Positions 1,026-8,542 are shown, numbered from the stretch's first letter. The stretch: DNA of 64,000 nucleotides from Haloarcula vallismortis ATCC 29715 (GCF_000337775.1 NZ_AOLQ01000069.1:1-64000), one strand, 5' to 3'. Made by a program: numbers and translations. The notes: generated by a model from the sequence alone, not told the origin.

Positions 1026-2318
1026 TTACTGCGTTTCCGTGCCGCCGTCGGTGGCACTTGGCTCGGACGGTGCATCGAGTTTCGGGAGCAGTCGGTACCC
1101 GGTCACTGTGCCGACTCCAGCGGAGAACGCGAGCGAGGCGACCAGTTGTGGAACTGGGCCGAAGCCAGCGCCCGAAACCGCTGACGCGACAAGTACCGTG
1201 AGCACGATTCCGACAAAACCGATTGCTGCTTCGCGGACAGCGATGCGGCGGAACCGCTGCCGACGGTCACTCGGCTGTGTCTGGAGTACCGGGCGGACAT
1301 CATGATATCGCGTCTGCACGAGGTAGTTCGTCACTACAGCGAGCAGGCCAGCGATGAACGACCACGATCCCCAGTTAACCCCGAATGCGGGGTCGAGATC
1401 AAGCGCGAATCCGCTCGGCTCGGCTGGCTGTTGGCTTTCGGGCGTCGACGGCACGGGTTCAGCGCCACCGCCGGCCACGGTTTCGGTCTCCTCTTCGCCG
1501 TCGGTGGGCATCTCAGCCGGTTCATCGGTCGGTGCTTCGACGCCAGCATCATCGTCACTGGCTCCAGCGGGCGTCTCGGTTGATTCGTCAACTGGTGTCA
1601 CCGTCTCTGGGTTAGCGCCGTCCCCGCCGTCAGTACCATTCCCATCGCTCGGATTGGTGTCGCCGCCACCGTTGGCTGTGTCTGTGCCGTCACTGTTGCC
1701 CACATCGGTGTCACCGTCATCGCTACCACTCGTATCAGCATTGTCGTCGCTGTCGCCATTGCTACCACCGCCCGCACTACCGCCATCTCCTCCACTGCCT
1801 CCACCGCCGCTACCACCGGTGCTTGATTCAGCATCGGGGACCTCCATCCTGTAGGTCACTGTCTCGGAGAGAGAGCTCGGGCTGTCGGCGTCGGTCGTCA
1901 CCGCGAACCCGAGTGTTGCCTGCTCGCCGGGCTCAAGCGTCATCGTGTTCCCCGTCTCATCGACCGACTCGCGTGTGCCCGCATCAGTATTCTTGTAGAT
2001 GTCCAGCCACTCGCTATCGTGTTCGAGCCGGAGCGTTGCTGCCTCGTCACTCCCAGTGACTCCGGAAAAACCGACGACGAATACGTCGTCGAATATCGTC
2101 TTCGTACTGGAAACAACGTCAACAGAAATAACAAGCTCGTCGTTGCTGTCAAACGACGCGTAGCGGTCGCCGTTGGGCGTGTCAGCCGGGGCCAGCGCAA
2201 CCCCGGTGTCCGCCTCCGGAGCGAGGTCATCGACAGGCTCGGAAAGCGGGGCCGCGCCCGTGGACATGACTGTCCCGCAGACGATGAACGCGAGTCCAAG
2301 GGCGAAGTACCATTTCAT
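1026..2318 (-). CDS. Membrane-anchored surface protein with DUF1102-like domain and Gly/Ser/Asp/Thr linker
   Basis: Predicted exported protein of about 430 residues. It has an N-terminal signal segment (MKWYFALGLAFIVCGTVMS), then a beta-rich domain at about 40-160 containing a TIFDDVFVV stretch like that of DUF1102 proteins. A linker of roughly 150 residues made almost only of Gly, Ser, Asp, Thr and Asn follows, then about three C-terminal membrane segments. The linker suggests a domain held away from the membrane. I prefer ATG 2318, which directly begins the signal peptide, over ATG 2336. The gene lies 82 bases downstream of a DUF1102 gene on the same strand and is probably cotranscribed. 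It could anchor the neighbouring secreted proteins; that is inference. Confidence 0.6.
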   Translation of the reverse strand: MKWYFALGLAFIVCGTVMSTGAAPLSEPVDDLAPEADTGVALAPADTPNGDRYASFDSNDELVISVDVVSSTKTIFDDVFVVGFSGVTGSDEAATLRLEHDSEWLDIYKNTDAGTRESVDETGNTMTLEPGEQATLGFAVTTDADSPSSLSETVTYRMEVPDAESSTGGSGGGGSGGDGGSAGGGSNGDSDDNADTSGSDDGDTDVGNSDGTDTANGGGDTNPSDGNGTDGGDGANPETVTPVDESTETPAGASDDDAGVEAPTDEPAEMPTDGEEETETVAGGGAEPVPSTPESQQPAEPSGFALDLDPAFGVNWGSWSFIAGLLAVVTNYLVQTRYHDVRPVLQTQPSDRRQRFRRIAVREAAIGFVGIVLTVLVASAVSGAGFGPVPQLVASLAFSAGVGTVTGYRLLPKLDAPSEPSATDGGTETQ

Positions 2319-2400
2319 ATCGCAGCCTGAAAGCATTAGATCAGTGCGTTTCCGGGTCAGTTACACTCTGTTGTAGTGCAGGTTCCTGCCGCCAGGACGA

Positions 2401-2988
2401 TCACACGTCGTAATCTTTCTGCCGAGCTGCGAAGACTATCTCACTAACATTGTCTATGTTCTCGTCAATATTCTCCTGAAGATTGATGACGATTGTAAGC
2501 GTAACATTGCCGGGATTACCGTTTCCATCATCGGAAGCAAGGTCCGCAGCGTATCCGCGTCCGGAATCGCCGTTACCGACGATAGAATTTCCACCGTGCT
2601 GTATATCCAGCAGCTTCCCGTCTCCAATGTAGCTCGTATTACCCGTATTATCTACTGAGACACCGACATCCTTGTCTCCTCTATTGACCACTTTCAGAGC
2701 GTCGTTAAATTTGGTTGTCGCGTTCTGATTGAGATCCTTCTGTTGAAGTTTGATTACAGAGTCACCGCCATCAGTTGCTGTGTCACCGGACGTGTCCTCT
2801 GTGTCGATTATGTTATTCGGGTCCCCGTTGGGCTCGAAGCCCAGAAGCGCATCTGAATCGTCAGAAGTATTGAGGTCAACTGTCCGCGTCGCCTCGACAG
2901 AGGAAAACGCACCAGAACCGAACGCGCCGCCGACAGTCGCACTGATTGTCCCGAGTCCGAGCAGGACACTGCGTCGATTGAGTCTCAT
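2401..2988 (-). CDS. DUF1102-type secreted protein
   Basis: Exported protein of 195 residues. The N terminus (RRSVLLGLG) leads a hydrophobic stretch ending in the signature GSGAFSSVEA-TRTV, which it shares with the proteins at 3166 and 4622. This form is typical of archaeal DUF1102 proteins and resembles SipW-dependent signal peptides of bacterial TasA-like fibre proteins. The mature part is acidic, rich in Asp, Asn and Gly, and ends in hydrophobic strands such as VTLTIVINL. It is divergently transcribed from its paralogue at 3166 across a region with a large palindrome. Likely role: a structural surface or matrix protein processed by the signal peptidase at 7400; function not shown. Confidence 0.7.
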   Translation of the reverse strand: MRLNRRSVLLGLGTISATVGGAFGSGAFSSVEATRTVDLNTSDDSDALLGFEPNGDPNNIIDTEDTSGDTATDGGDSVIKLQQKDLNQNATTKFNDALKVVNRGDKDVGVSVDNTGNTSYIGDGKLLDIQHGGNSIVGNGDSGRGYAADLASDDGNGNPGNVTLTIVINLQENIDENIDNVSEIVFAARQKDYDV

Positions 2989-3028
2989 CTGTTGTGTTAC
3001 ACAACGCTAGTCCACCAGTTACTATTGA

Positions 3029-3073
3029 CGTGCCTGAGCGTGGTTAATGCCGCCCATTAACGGCTCAGGCACG
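3029..3073. repeat. 45-bp interrupted palindrome in the divergent DUF1102 promoter region
   Basis: CGTGCCTGAGC at 3029-3039 is repeated exactly in inverse at 3063-3073, and an inner GTTAATG/CATTAAC pair continues the symmetry. It lies between the start codons of two divergent DUF1102 genes (2988 and 3166), so an operator is likelier than a terminator. Confidence 0.6.
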
Positions 3074-3147
3074 GCTATAACTCCACTCAAGCAGCCTAAT
3101 AGTAAGTCCCCGGAAACTGTTGTATCTGATACGGCACGGCCATAACG
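3068..3147 (+). promoter_or_regulatory. Duplicated promoter-like element upstream of the second DUF1102 gene
   Basis: GGCACGGCTATAAC (3068-3081) recurs with one mismatch as GGCACGGCCATAAC (3134-3147). Each copy contains an ATAAC box. The second lies about 20-25 bases before ATG 3166, as expected for a leaderless haloarchaeal transcript; the first overlaps the right arm of the palindrome. Confidence 0.4.
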
Positions 3148-3165
3148 TGCTGACTAACTACAACT

Positions 3166-3834
3166 ATGAATCGCAGAAACGTACTTACGGGACTCGGTGG
3201 ACTGGCAATCAGTGGTGGGGCGCTCTTTGGGTCGGGCGCATTTACGAGCGTTAGCGCGACACGTTCAGTAGAGGTGAATGTTTTCGGTGCAGATAGTGGT
3301 ACAAGCGGCCTCGTAGAGGGTGCAGAACAATCTACCGAAGACGAGATTGCGACGACGATCACCAACAACGCCGTCGACGTACTCGTTGATACGTCGTCTG
3401 CTGATGTCTCAGTCAAGGGGCCCAATGACACCTCTGTCGATGCAAACACCCTGTTCCCCGCTAATCCGGGGGCTTCGAACGGAGCGGACCCTGGTACGGA
3501 GGGAACATACGACAACGTGAGCCACGAGTACGTGAGCCTTGTCGCCAACGACGTAACGATCGTCTTTGGCGAAGAGAACGGCCTCCCGCCGAACTCGACG
3601 CTCGGATACAACGGGCTCTTCGAATTCATACCGAACAGCGACAACAGCGCCACGTTTGACGTTACGTTCGGGGGAAGCAATGGCGGCGATGTGCTTACGA
3701 AAGTCGATGAAAAGTCGGTTAGCGACGGCGCAGTTGTCTCGATTTCAAGCAGTACTTCGAGCAATGCCAAAGTTGCGACAGAAACTTCGGGTAAGAATGA
3801 AGACCTCGATATTAGCATTTCGAGCAGTAACTGA
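3166..3834 (+). CDS. DUF1102-type secreted protein
   Basis: Exported protein of 222 residues, paralogous to the protein at 2401-2988. It starts MNRRNVLTGLG, followed by a hydrophobic segment and the shared signature GSGAFTSVSA-TRSV. The mature region is acidic, rich in Ser, Asn and Thr, and predicted to be mostly beta. It ends in a Ser-rich tail and has no C-terminal anchor, so it should be released or assembled outside the cell. Gene order with its paralogues and a signal peptidase suggests it is a subunit of a surface structure. The DUF1102 family has no proven function that I know of. Confidence 0.7.
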   Translation: MNRRNVLTGLGGLAISGGALFGSGAFTSVSATRSVEVNVFGADSGTSGLVEGAEQSTEDEIATTITNNAVDVLVDTSSADVSVKGPNDTSVDANTLFPANPGASNGADPGTEGTYDNVSHEYVSLVANDVTIVFGEENGLPPNSTLGYNGLFEFIPNSDNSATFDVTFGGSNGGDVLTKVDEKSVSDGAVVSISSSTSSNAKVATETSGKNEDLDISISSSN

Positions 3835-4025
3835 CGATCTGGGCTCAATAACTCAAGAAACAGCGTAGTTTACTTTTAATTGCTGCGACCAGATTCTGTG
3901 ATGTAGTTCTTTCTCGTCATTGCTGCCGGCGGGCGATGAAGAATTTTCAAATCTAGTGACACCAAATTTTTATCTATTAAATATCTAATTCATACTCAGT
4001 TTGTTACCAGTGACACTCCAGAAGA

Positions 4026-4040
4026 CTTTTTATACTATAA
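4026..4040 (+). promoter_or_regulatory. TATA box for the winged-helix regulator gene
   Basis: CTTTTTATACTATAA lies about 20-28 bases before ATG 4056, the usual haloarchaeal distance for a leaderless mRNA. It ends an AT-rich 220-base gap after the DUF1102 gene, so a new transcript probably starts here and covers 4056-5914. Confidence 0.6.
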
Positions 4041-4055
4041 ACAAACCAATAGCTA

Positions 4056-4625
4056 ATGGCTGTGGGTGGGAAGCAAAGCGACCAGACAGGGGCTGGTAAC
4101 GCGATTACGCGGGATAAGGTGTTTGAATTACTCAGTAATCACCGCCGGCGATACGCGCTCCACGTAGCGAAGCAGACGGACGGTGCGTCTGAGCTGTCGG
4201 ATATCGCAGAACAGGTAGCGGCGTGGGAAAACGGAAAAGCGCAGAGCGAGATCACGTCCAGTGAACGCCATCGCGTGTACACGTCGATGCAACAGACGCA
4301 CTTGCCCGCGATGGACCGCGCGGGCGTGATCGACTACGACAACGGCACGGTCACGCTGACCGAGCAGGCGGCGGATCTCGACGTGTACATGGATGTCGTG
4401 CCGGAGGACTCCATCCCGTGGGGACAGTACTACCTCGGGCTGGCAGTCCTCTCCGGCGCTGTGGTCGGCGCGGCCGGGCTGGGCGTGTTCCCGGCGAGCG
4501 TGCCCGACCTCGCGTGGGCGGCCCTCGTCGTCGCGCTGTTCCTCTGCTCCGGGCTGTATCACGTCTGGCAGAGTCGACAACTCCGTCTGGGAGCTGGTGA
4601 GACGCCGCCGGATGTTGAAACATGA
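4056..4625 (+). CDS. Winged-helix membrane regulator (DUF7344-like)
   Basis: Protein of 189 residues. Residues 20-110 look like the winged-helix domain common in haloarchaeal regulators, with the signature ELLSNHRRRYALHV and a TVTLTEQAADLDVYMDVV wing region. Two membrane segments follow (about 125-170) and a short cytoplasmic tail. Such proteins probably read an envelope signal and act on nearby promoters. The stop overlaps the next start as ATGA at 4622, so it is translationally coupled to the LamG-like surface protein. It is the only clear DNA-binding candidate in this locus and could recognise the palindrome at 3029-3073; that is inference. Confidence 0.65.
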   Translation: MAVGGKQSDQTGAGNAITRDKVFELLSNHRRRYALHVAKQTDGASELSDIAEQVAAWENGKAQSEITSSERHRVYTSMQQTHLPAMDRAGVIDYDNGTVTLTEQAADLDVYMDVVPEDSIPWGQYYLGLAVLSGAVVGAAGLGVFPASVPDLAWAALVVALFLCSGLYHVWQSRQLRLGAGETPPDVET

Positions 4626-5914
4626 GCAAGAAGTGGACTCGCCGGAGTGCACTCGCGCTGATCGGTAGCGGTGCCGGGCTCCTTACCTGGGGGACTGGCG
4701 GGTTCACAGATGTGACTGCTGAGCGTCAGGTAAATATTGACACAACTGCTGACAACAGTTCCAGTGGTCCACTTGTCGGAGTAGAAATAAAAGCTACCAG
4801 CGGAGGGCCCGGAGAGACAGTGTCGCTAATAAAACTGACAAACAACTTGGGCGCAGATATCAACGTCGTATCGGCGAGTGTTGAGATTAAGGACAGTAAT
4901 GGGAACATCGTTCAGCCCGACACGCTGTTCAAGGAAAACACTAATAAGATTCTCGACATACCAGATACGATCGAAACAGAATCCACCAAGAGTATCAAAG
5001 CAACCCTTGACACGCTCTCGTCCACGCCCTCCGAATCTGACAACAGCACGTACGATGTCACTCTGTATGTCTCCGTTGCTACCAAAAACGACAATCAAAA
5101 GGTAACGCTCGAACGAGTATCTACCGTTACCTACGATGATCCGCGGCTTTCGTATTGGGACTTTGATGGAATAGACGGAAAAACTATCAAAGATATCTGG
5201 AGTGGCAACAACGCCAGCCGTCAATACGTAGGGCGGCGTCGTGGACGCTTTTATGGCTATGAGCCAGATCCGTTATCCATTGATGAGCGTGGCACCGTGC
5301 TTGATTTCCGCGGCGACAGATTCCGTTCAGGCGATGATGACGTTATTACGACATCTCCCTCTTCTAAATTAGATTTCACCGATGACTTTTCGCTCTCAGT
5401 TTGGATAAAACCGATTTCGATTCCGAATTGGTACGCGCGACTATTCAGTAAATGGAAATCTCCCAGGTATAATCAAGATTCTGACGCTGAGAAGGGATAC
5501 CAGTTTTTCCTCAGTGAAACTGGCAATATATATGACGATAAATTTGAAATTGGCATAGAAACTGGGCAGAAAAATGGAAAAACCAATGAGATAAACACGG
5601 GTGCAACAGTAAGCGGGGGTGATTGGAACCATGTTGTCTGGACCCACTGGCCGTCTAAACAACCTGATAGGGTATACGTAAATAGAAACAGTGAAATTGT
5701 TGACAAAATAGATGTTGACAAAATAAAACATCCGTCTGGGTCCGATGCACCACTCCGGATAGGCAACGGGATCGACGGTAATAGAAACCTTAGTTTTCCA
5801 TTCGATGGTCTCATGGACGAGCCAAAAGCCTACGACACCGCGCTCACCACCGAGCAGGTGCTAAACCTCCACAAGACAAGTGAAGCCGGCGATGGTGGTA
5901 GTATCGGTGGGTGA
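4622..5914 (+). CDS. Secreted LamG/concanavalin-like domain protein with DUF1102-type signal
   Basis: Protein of 430 residues. The N terminus (KKWTRRSALALIGSGAG) leads to GTGGFTDVTA-ERQV, the export signature of the DUF1102 proteins. Residues 35-170 form a beta domain. Residues about 175-415 carry LamG-like jelly-roll marks: FTDDFSLSVWIKP, WNHVVWTHW and PFDGLMDEPKAYDTALTTEQ. This fold often binds carbohydrate or surface polymers. The end is a short Gly-rich tail. The middle of the gene (about 5400-5730) is visibly richer in A and T than its neighbours, with codons such as ATA and AAA that are rare around it, suggesting recent transfer or domain acquisition. It overlaps the upstream regulator by four bases. 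Confidence 0.75.
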   Translation: MSKKWTRRSALALIGSGAGLLTWGTGGFTDVTAERQVNIDTTADNSSSGPLVGVEIKATSGGPGETVSLIKLTNNLGADINVVSASVEIKDSNGNIVQPDTLFKENTNKILDIPDTIETESTKSIKATLDTLSSTPSESDNSTYDVTLYVSVATKNDNQKVTLERVSTVTYDDPRLSYWDFDGIDGKTIKDIWSGNNASRQYVGRRRGRFYGYEPDPLSIDERGTVLDFRGDRFRSGDDDVITTSPSSKLDFTDDFSLSVWIKPISIPNWYARLFSKWKSPRYNQDSDAEKGYQFFLSETGNIYDDKFEIGIETGQKNGKTNEINTGATVSGGDWNHVVWTHWPSKQPDRVYVNRNSEIVDKIDVDKIKHPSGSDAPLRIGNGIDGNRNLSFPFDGLMDEPKAYDTALTTEQVLNLHKTSEAGDGGSIGG

Positions 5915-5973
5915 ATTCTGTGAGCGTATTGATTCAATAAATCACACTGCCCGTAGCGCGTGCAACGAACAAC

Positions 5974-6084
5974 ATGGTCAACAGCGAATCAAATGAAGCA
6001 GAAAACGTTGGTGTGCCGGTCCCGACGAGGATAGTGGCCACGTCACATCGCAGACTACCGGGTGTAAACGATGAAAATGAATAA
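5974..6084 (+). CDS. Possible 36-residue ORF overlapping the DUF5305 gene
   Basis: A short open frame (MVNSESNEAENVGVPVPTRI...) fills most of the 156-base gap after the LamG gene and ends 14 bases inside the DUF5305 gene. Its composition is acidic at the start and basic later, with no recognisable motif. It could be a real small protein or an upstream frame that couples translation to the next gene. No clear TATA box precedes it. Confidence 0.3.
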   Translation: MVNSESNEAENVGVPVPTRIVATSHRRLPGVNDENE

Positions 6085-7300
6085 TCTACTTTCAGTGTCT
6101 GTCCGCTCCGCCCTCAACCGCTGGTTTGTACTGGTACTACTCGTTGCACTTGCAGTAACGCTCGCTGGTGGCTACGTCACGTACGACAGCCACGTCGACG
6201 GCGCGGAAACGGTCGTCGAGCAGCAAACGACTGGCACGTGGACAGTGGAAAGCGAGTTCGAGCACGGCGCGACAGTGACGCGTGACACCGAGGTGTTCAG
6301 TGCCGGCGAGGAACTCACCAACCGGTCGCTGTATTTCACGACGGCGTCGCCCGAGCTTGAGGGCACATATACTGTCTCACACGACAACACTGACGGGAAC
6401 CCGGCAGACACCTCGACGGACCTGTCGCTGGTCATCCGTGCTGTTGAGGAGCGAAACGGGAATCAGGAGGTCCACTGGGAGACACGCGACTCGCTTGAGA
6501 CGCTCGACGGCGTTGAAATCGAGGACGGCGAAGCGACCGAAACGACCGTCAGTGTCGACATTCCGACAATTCTCAACCGCACCGAAGCAATACAAAACGA
6601 CCTCGGGGCCGCCCCCGGACAGACCGAGGTGTTACTCGTCGCCGACACGACCGTCGAGTCGTCGGTCGACGGGGAGACGTTCACCGACACCCGCACCGAC
6701 CGCATCGAGATCGTGCCCGGGCAGAGCGTCTATCGCGTTAGCACGACCACACAGGACGCGGGTTCCTACGAGGCGACCGAGCAGGTGACCCGGACTATTG
6801 AGCCGACGCGGCTGGAACTGTACGGCGGGCCTGCACTCTGTGTGCTTGGACTGCTCTCTATGGCCTTCCTTGGGACGGCACGCTGGCGCGGCTGGCTGGC
6901 AGTCACCGACCGCGAACGAGTGCGCAACGAGTTCGAGCGTGCGCGTGACGATTTCGACGAGTGGATCTCTACGGCACGGATTCCGGACGCCGGCGACCGG
7001 ACGCCCGTACCGACGGATTCGCTGGTCGACCTCGTCGACATCGCTATCGATAGTGACAGGCGGGTACTTGAACACGGTGATCAGTATGCTGTCCTCGTCG
7101 ACAGCGAAATTTACACGTACACGGCTCCGCCAGCCGTTGACCCGCTTGCGTCACCGGCGACTGGCGATACCGACCCTGTCGCAGAAGACACAGAACAAGA
7201 GACAGCGTCGCTTTCCAACCTGCTGTTCAGTGACTCGACCGAGAGCACTGGTGGGACACACCCTGATGAAAGCGACACGCGCGACTCGAACGACAGGTGA
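6071..7300 (+). CDS. DUF5305-type membrane protein
   Basis: Protein of 409 residues with one N-terminal membrane helix (about 15-35), a long extracytoplasmic beta-rich region (40-245), a second helix (about 255-275) and a cytoplasmic C-terminal part. This matches the haloarchaeal DUF5305 family, which commonly sits beside a signal peptidase I gene. It is followed by that gene after 99 bases. The role is unknown; an accessory to secretion or to assembly of the DUF1102 proteins is the natural guess. Starts at 6071 (MKMNN) or 6077 (MNN) are both possible. Confidence 0.65.
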   Translation: MKMNNLLSVSVRSALNRWFVLVLLVALAVTLAGGYVTYDSHVDGAETVVEQQTTGTWTVESEFEHGATVTRDTEVFSAGEELTNRSLYFTTASPELEGTYTVSHDNTDGNPADTSTDLSLVIRAVEERNGNQEVHWETRDSLETLDGVEIEDGEATETTVSVDIPTILNRTEAIQNDLGAAPGQTEVLLVADTTVESSVDGETFTDTRTDRIEIVPGQSVYRVSTTTQDAGSYEATEQVTRTIEPTRLELYGGPALCVLGLLSMAFLGTARWRGWLAVTDRERVRNEFERARDDFDEWISTARIPDAGDRTPVPTDSLVDLVDIAIDSDRRVLEHGDQYAVLVDSEIYTYTAPPAVDPLASPATGDTDPVAEDTEQETASLSNLLFSDSTESTGGTHPDESDTRDSNDR

Positions 7301-7357
7301 CACCATCGGCCAGCACGTCCTGTAATTGTTGATGGCTCTGCTCGACTGAGCAACACC

Positions 7358-7368
7358 GATTTATATTC
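7358..7368 (+). promoter_or_regulatory. TATA box for the signal peptidase gene
   Basis: GATTTATATTC lies 32 to 42 bases before ATG 7400, so the signal peptidase gene probably has its own start of transcription besides any readthrough from the DUF5305 gene. Confidence 0.5.
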
Positions 7369-7399
7369 TGCTGGTCTACATCGCGTAGCGATACACTGG

Positions 7400-8542
7400 A
7401 TGCTCCGAACATATGTGACGAGGGGGCTGACAATTGCTGGCTTCGTGTTGGTCCTGACACTCATCGTGGGCGCACTGGTCGGGCAGCCAGTGCTTTTGAG
7501 CTTCGTCGTGTCCGGCAGTATGTCGCCAACGATTCAGCAGGGGGATGGCTTCGTCGCGATTCCGGCGCAGGCCGCAGGCGACATTGAGCAGGGCGATGTC
7601 ATCGTCTTCCAGTCACAGGAGATTCGCGGTGGAGAACTGACGACACATCGAGTCGTCGGTGAAACTGAGCGGGGATACATTACGCGGGGGGATGCAAACC
7701 CGTTCACAGATCAGGATGGGGCTGAACCCCCAGTGACCGACAGCCAAATCGTCGCAATCGCTTGGCAGCCCGGCGGACAGGTGGTGACAATCCCGAACCT
7801 CGGCACTGCCATTCTCGCCGGCCGCGTCGTCGTGACGAATATTCTGACTGCGGTTACCACGGTCCTTGGGGTTGAGGGGGCAGCCGAGTCCTGGCAGGCG
7901 GGTACGGTGATGCTGGTCTCCGGCGTGATACTGTTCGCCATAAGCCTCGGCAGCGGGGTCGTGAACGGGTCGTCGCGCGAACGAGCGCGCTCGCGCGGGC
8001 AGGACACCTTCGATCCACGGTACGCCGCGCTCTTTCTGACTGCAATCATCATCGTCCCGGCCAACATCGCAATGGTGGCTCCGAGTTCGACCCACCAGAT
8101 CCCGTCGGGCGAGATCGCAGCCGGGAACAATATCGCCCCCGGCGACCCGGTCGAAGCAACGCTTGTCGCCAACAACGAAGACGCGCTGGTGACGATGCTC
8201 GTCGTGTTTAACGCCTCCGGCCGCACGACAATCGAGAATCGGTGGCTCGACGTTCCGGGCGGAGAGACGGACTCGACAGCGTTGTATGCACCTGCCCCGC
8301 CACGAGGCGAACAGAAGGTCGTGACTGTCTCTGAGCACCGTTACATCGTCTTGCTGCCGCCGACTGTTATTATCGCGATGCACGACATTCACCCACTGGT
8401 GGCACTGGGTGTGATCAATGCGGCGCTCACCGTGGCGGTACTGGCGTTCGTTATCGGATTACTCGGGACAGAGAAGCGGCGCGTTCGTGACTCTGACCGA
8501 GACATCTCGCTTTACCTCCGATTAAAGCGTCGACTGCTGTGA
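7400..8542 (+). CDS. Archaeal/ER-type signal peptidase I with extended C-terminal membrane domain
   Basis: Membrane serine protease (S26B family) that removes signal peptides at the outer face of the membrane. A first helix (about 10-30) precedes SGSMSP with nucleophile Ser40. The general base is His83 (LTTHRVVG) rather than lysine, as in archaeal, ER and SipW-type enzymes. The conserved ITRGDAN follows at 94-100. At 380 residues it is about twice the usual core; the extra part holds membrane segments, a beta-rich extracytoplasmic stretch and a final helix near 345. Its neighbours make the exported proteins at 2401, 3166 and 4622 its likely substrates (inference). Confidence 0.85.
   Translation: MLRTYVTRGLTIAGFVLVLTLIVGALVGQPVLLSFVVSGSMSPTIQQGDGFVAIPAQAAGDIEQGDVIVFQSQEIRGGELTTHRVVGETERGYITRGDANPFTDQDGAEPPVTDSQIVAIAWQPGGQVVTIPNLGTAILAGRVVVTNILTAVTTVLGVEGAAESWQAGTVMLVSGVILFAISLGSGVVNGSSRERARSRGQDTFDPRYAALFLTAIIIVPANIAMVAPSSTHQIPSGEIAAGNNIAPGDPVEATLVANNEDALVTMLVVFNASGRTTIENRWLDVPGGETDSTALYAPAPPRGEQKVVTVSEHRYIVLLPPTVIIAMHDIHPLVALGVINAALTVAVLAFVIGLLGTEKRRVRDSDRDISLYLRLKRRLL

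Follow-up and report, generated by a model that had tools for sequence, protein, structure and literature searches.

The seven genes at positions 1026-8542 of the 64,000-nucleotide stretch of Haloarcula vallismortis ATCC 29715 that we analyzed (NZ_AOLQ01000069.1:1-64000, hereafter the window) very probably form a haloarchaeal cluster for twin-arginine translocation (Tat) fimbriae, or tafi, whose subunits would be cut by the cluster's own signal peptidase and joined by donor-strand assembly. Tat-fimbriae were reportedly found in haloarchaea by Galeva et al. (iScience 2025). The tafi-type locus as a kind has already been described; what is new here is the class-wide module formed by the peptidase and a DUF5305 protein, together with the separation from true TasA loci. 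Using the NCBIfam equivalog models, we identified four tafi components above cut-off in this one cluster, namely, TafF (1026..2336, minus strand; NF052523, 592.7 bits, cut-off 420), the fimbrial adapter protein TafE (2401..2988, minus strand; NF052522, 213.8 bits, cut-off 155), the major fimbrial subunit TafA (3166..3834, plus strand; NF052520, 227.2 bits, cut-off 190) and TafC (4622..5914, plus strand; NF052521, 522 bits, cut-off 410). The remaining three genes, all on the plus strand, encode a DUF7344 winged-helix regulator (4056..4625; PF24035, E=7e-28), a DUF5305 protein (6071..7300; PF17231, E=9.7e-62) and an endoplasmic reticulum (ER)-type signal peptidase I (7400..8542; TIGR02228, 65 bits, cut-off 51.85). 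A preliminary description of the locus, whose coordinates all check out, had already recognized these three as a winged-helix membrane regulator, a DUF5305 protein and an archaeal-type signal peptidase with extra domains, and our searches bear this out; its suggestion that the locus could build a surface fibre understates the case, as such fibres have been known as Tat-fimbriae since 2025. A passage of one article that cites Galeva et al. (PMC12687288) states that the Tat system in haloarchaea exports components of thin filamentous appendages, of which TafA is the core component. Set against tafi as given by Galeva et al. and NCBIfam, the locus has all four modelled proteins, has twin-arginine signals and belongs to the same class, with no basic difference. 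The NCBIfam models for tafi give no Taf name to DUF5305, DUF7344 or the peptidase, and no model for TafB or TafD was found among the NCBIfam matches of the locus proteins; the letters TafB and TafD may, by elimination, belong to two of the three. The closest named relatives of the locus are those of H. argentinensis and H. sebkhae, with TafA being 79% identical.

The three exported proteins share the signature G-[ST]-G-x-F-[ST]-x-V-x-A-x-R-x-V, as had been noticed, and the match is exact in 3/3, at residues 24-37 of TafE (GSGAFSSVEATRTV; 2878..2919, minus strand), at residues 22-35 of TafA (GSGAFTSVSATRSV; 3229..3270, plus strand), which hold the predicted cleavage site and the candidate donor strand, and at residues 24-37 of TafC (GTGGFTDVTAERQV; 4691..4732, plus strand). 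Each time the signature is preceded by a twin-arginine (RR) signal, NRRSVL in TafE, NRRNVL in TafA and TRRSAL in TafC, and the motif itself reads GSGAF in TafE and GTGGF in TafC. When we searched a profile of this 44-residue N-terminal module (RR signal, GSG and AF strand) against the whole 3.92 Mb genome, only tafE, tafA and tafC were found in full (E = 1.6e-20, 8.9e-20 and 8.1e-14); the next match (E = 9e-4) covered the RR signal part alone, and nearly all later matches were weak and likewise limited to the RR signal. Since the full module is confined to three genes in the genome, the sharing of the signature is not due to chance. Across 72 related proteins, V is conserved at P5' in 58/72, A at P7' in 70/72 and R at P9' in 72/72, three positions that played no part in choosing these proteins, P1'-P3' being partly fixed by the search pattern. 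In this set of 72, V or A predominates at odd positions between P5' and P15', apart from P9' with its invariant R, and polar residues occupy the even ones; the stretch following the predicted cut thus has the pattern of a putative amphipathic strand.

The protein family to which these subunits belong includes a structure deposited as 'Pilin' (PDB 9p0a), which was matched in phmmer searches by TafE (E=4.3e-12) and by TafA (E=6.6e-5 over residues 1-181), and by a 51-member family profile at 6.3e-28 over the full mature length. 9p0a resembles the Taf family in this full-length homology and in the GTGAFSSVEADRTV motif common to both, but differs from the proteins of our locus in being a TafE/TafA-like paralogue of another haloarchaeal family. 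In locus L084, which has no TafF, a protein near-identical to 9p0a (E = 1.4e-101) is encoded, with genes for the same peptidase, DUF5305 and DUF7344 next to it. Because 9p0a is named 'Pilin' and contains three identical chains, it may be read as a filament. Of the tafA-containing loci of the class, 32/33 have the peptidase, 32/33 DUF7344, 25/33 TafF and 24/33 DUF5305; the single tafA locus with neither peptidase nor DUF7344 is L051. One could suppose that no fibre is formed and that the exported proteins act separately, as surface or S-layer-associated lectins with a common signal/cleavage module, given that TafC contains a LamG domain and that very diverse proteins in 293/391 genomes carry just the N-terminal module. 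However, this is highly improbable, since the NCBIfam Taf equivalogs are based on described fimbriae, the family includes a deposited multi-chain 'Pilin', and the gene order is strictly conserved.

The preliminary description had likened the locus to the TasA-SipW fibre system; a surface fibre with a dedicated peptidase is right in kind, given the Taf proteins and the solved 'Pilin' of their family, but the assignment to the TasA and SipW families does not hold. Like the tapA-sipW-tasA cluster of B. subtilis, the locus has an ER-type peptidase gene beside the fibre genes, Phe at the predicted P2', a putative strand after the cut, and minor subunits beside the major one. In TasA, the donor strand comprises residues 28-38, immediately behind the signal peptide, and its F29 and I32 make hydrophobic contacts (PMC9674648); TasA has Phe at P2' and is processed by SipW, a dedicated ER-type peptidase (PMC10269814). 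If the Taf cut is placed at GSG|AF, Phe stands at P2' and Val at P5', and the spacing of A-F-x-x-V equals that of TasA A28-F29-N-D-I32. Both this spacing and the alternation of residues behind the cut agree with TasA and would be compatible with a jelly-roll subunit bearing an N-terminal donor strand. Together with a weak match of the locus peptidase to the SipW-type peptidase model (NF046067; 36.2 bits, below the cut-off of 190), this similarity of position and strand spacing would fit a true TasA-SipW system, i.e., haloarchaeal TasA/camelysin homologues cut by a SipW orthologue. However, neither PF12389 (TasA/camelysin) nor TIGR04088 (SipW-cognate signal) matched anything in the locus or the rest of this genome, and both were also absent from the two further Haloarcula genomes of the sample, although each model matches B. 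subtilis and 26/59 haloarchaea in other genes (TIGR04088 also matches Haloferax volcanii). Moreover, ten true TasA-type loci of haloarchaea (L147-L156) contain no DUF5305 (0) and no long-extension peptidase (0); a shorter SipW-like peptidase was detected by hidden Markov model (HMM) in five of them and DUF7344 regulators in seven. What these loci have in common with ours is their haloarchaeal origin, mostly DUF7344 regulators, and an S26 peptidase near several of them, whereas they differ in having another subunit family and short or other peptidases, and in their absence from this genome. The B. subtilis cluster differs in turn, as our locus encodes a peptidase extended by a long membrane/ectodomain part, with DUF5305 as its candidate partner. 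An hhalign comparison of the Taf family with the haloarchaeal TasA proteins returned a probability of 0.1%, a value of limited sensitivity, as the TasA side was a profile of three sequences. Since the family models, the loci and the hhalign comparison all set them apart, Taf and TasA are separate systems as far as sequence similarity can tell, and a true TasA-SipW system is an unlikely explanation of the locus; we rejected TasA membership at the family level, the two family models and the SipW cut-off having all failed. True TasA/camelysin-family genes do occur in other haloarchaea (e.g., L147:7654-8974), apart from tafi-type loci.

As for how the Tat-fimbriae of this locus might be assembled, the sequence shows that TafA, TafC and TafE carry twin-arginine signals with one putative cleavage-site motif, that TafF is a membrane protein whose linker is long and flexible, and that an ER-type peptidase is encoded in the cluster itself. 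This peptidase would cut at about GSG|AF (predicted mature TafA begins at A25, window position 3238), freeing the amphipathic strand AF[ST]xVxAxRxVxV at the new N-terminus, and, by analogy with TasA, donor-strand complementation may then follow, the freed strand inserting into the next subunit. TafA would then make up the shaft and TafE would act as adapter; TafF would anchor the fibre across the S-layer, and the LamG-bearing TafC would provide an adhesive end that can be exchanged. Assembly may take place at a membrane site made of DUF5305 and the ectodomain of the peptidase, and regulation of the divergent transcription units would fall to the DUF7344 protein. Several points weigh against this scheme. 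The predicted structures were unusable, with a predicted local distance difference test (pLDDT) score of 28.6 for mature TafA and 35.5 for the peptidase (four homologues each); because both structure predictions failed, we only infer the donor-strand step, and the same applies to the precise position of the cut and to what DUF5305 and TafF do. In addition, neither the family models nor the profile-profile comparison detected any sequence homology of the Taf family to TasA, and 9/33 tafA loci have no DUF5305 gene nearby, so that a strict requirement for it in cis can be dismissed.

Beyond tafA loci, the peptidase and DUF5305 are closely associated. Among 116 genomes, 89 have the peptidase, 91 have DUF5305 and 89 have both, DUF5305 occurring without the peptidase in two (hypergeometric P about 2e-23, phylogeny ignored), and DUF5305 lies at most 10 kb from 117/130 peptidase genes, compared with an expected value of about 0.8%. 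In 40 loci picked by the peptidase, we found DUF5305 in 38/40, DUF7344 in 32/40 and a TafE-type protein in 32/40; this last count is based on the HMM, as the 40/40 obtained with a permissive RR-GSGAF regular expression was inflated by out-of-frame open reading frames and was not used. Likewise, 18/20 of the sampled loci that have the N-terminal module only (L075-L094) contain the long peptidase, and 18/20 contain DUF5305. The peptidase and DUF5305 therefore constitute a class-wide module that is linked to Taf proteins, 9p0a-type pilins and DUF1102 proteins, and is separate from true TasA loci. It is conceivable, and we propose it tentatively, that the long peptidase and DUF5305 are the constant core of a class-wide haloarchaeal fibre-assembly pathway serving several subunit families that look unrelated (Taf, 9p0a-type pilins and DUF1102 proteins), in which the peptidase ectodomain and DUF5305 would take the cut subunit and pass its strand to the fibre, coupling cleavage to polymerisation. 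If so, the duplication and dedication of a housekeeping-type enzyme would be accounted for, and the mechanism of fibre assembly would be testable for a whole archaeal class. We found no mention of DUF5305 or DUF1102 in the literature searched.

The locus had also been presented as a DUF1102 locus with a DUF1102-like membrane-anchored protein, which our searches contradict, as PF06510 (DUF1102), present in 53/145 haloarchaea, has no match in the whole genome, the locus included (0 matches). DUF1102 genes elsewhere lie at most 10 kb from the long signal peptidase in 52/75 cases (e.g., L120 and L121); since they adjoin the same long peptidase, the DUF1102 loci are a sister type of our locus. This proximity, and weak matches of PF06510 to 2/51 fibre proteins (best E 0.0011), are what would speak for a DUF1102 surface-protein locus here, but with no PF06510 match in the locus or the genome this reading is extremely improbable, and we rejected DUF1102 membership of the locus. 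The DUF1102-peptidase loci themselves suggest an uncharacterised fibre-type locus.

As to the individual proteins, TafF consists of a signal region, a beta domain (about residues 60-165), a low-complexity Gly/Ser/Asp/Thr linker and two C-terminal transmembrane (TM) segments, and from this topology, read from the sequence, it is likely a membrane anchor spanning the S-layer. In TafC, residues 237-413 form a C-terminal LamG/ConA-like lectin domain (PF13385, E=2.9e-19). Its relatives keep the N-terminal half, and their C-terminal domain varies, being LamG in several, bactofilin-like, or unrecognised; this domain swapping suggests that TafC is likely an adhesive minor subunit with an exchangeable end. 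In one case, the protein at the TafC position (L056:10398-11567) has a bactofilin-like beta-helix domain replacing LamG. The DUF7344 protein has a winged helix-turn-helix domain and two TM helices, and the stop of its gene overlaps the start of tafC by 4 nucleotides. The DUF5305 protein is laid out as a TM segment, an ectodomain, a second TM segment and an acidic cytosolic tail, and, given its class-wide linkage, it is a candidate for the signal peptidase's partner in assembly. A second DUF5305 copy, broken by a TAG codon and adjoining tafF, was noted at L044:704-1822 (G101:C1:1172-1822), and is perhaps a decayed remnant of the other Haloarcula gene arrangement. The peptidase has Ser-His-Asp motifs at S40, H83 and D98/D104 (assigned by motif), its catalytic motifs being invariant, followed by a long C-terminal extension with TM segments and a probable beta ectodomain. 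The genome holds two other peptidase candidates, a pair of adjacent Sec11-like genes of 302 and 236 amino acids on another contig (L068; G000:C21), which are probably the general signal peptidases; because of this pair, the peptidase of the locus is an extra copy.

Searches of viral contigs recovered no relatives of TafA and none of the peptidase, and a PHROGs search gave nothing useful. The divergent tafE/tafA promoter region (2989..3165) contains an imperfect dyad (TTACTATTGAC..GCCTGAGC / GCTCAGGC..AATAGTAA), which is conserved in close Haloarcula relatives; however, its conservation is uninformative, because these relatives are 91% identical over the entire intergenic region. The dyad might be a shared operator, and the region 2989-3165 also holds two copies of GGCACGGCYATAAC. 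Finally, the G+C content is about 52% at window positions 2001-6000, where the fimbrial genes are located, compared with 60-68% in most of the window, which resembles fast-exchanging surface islands.
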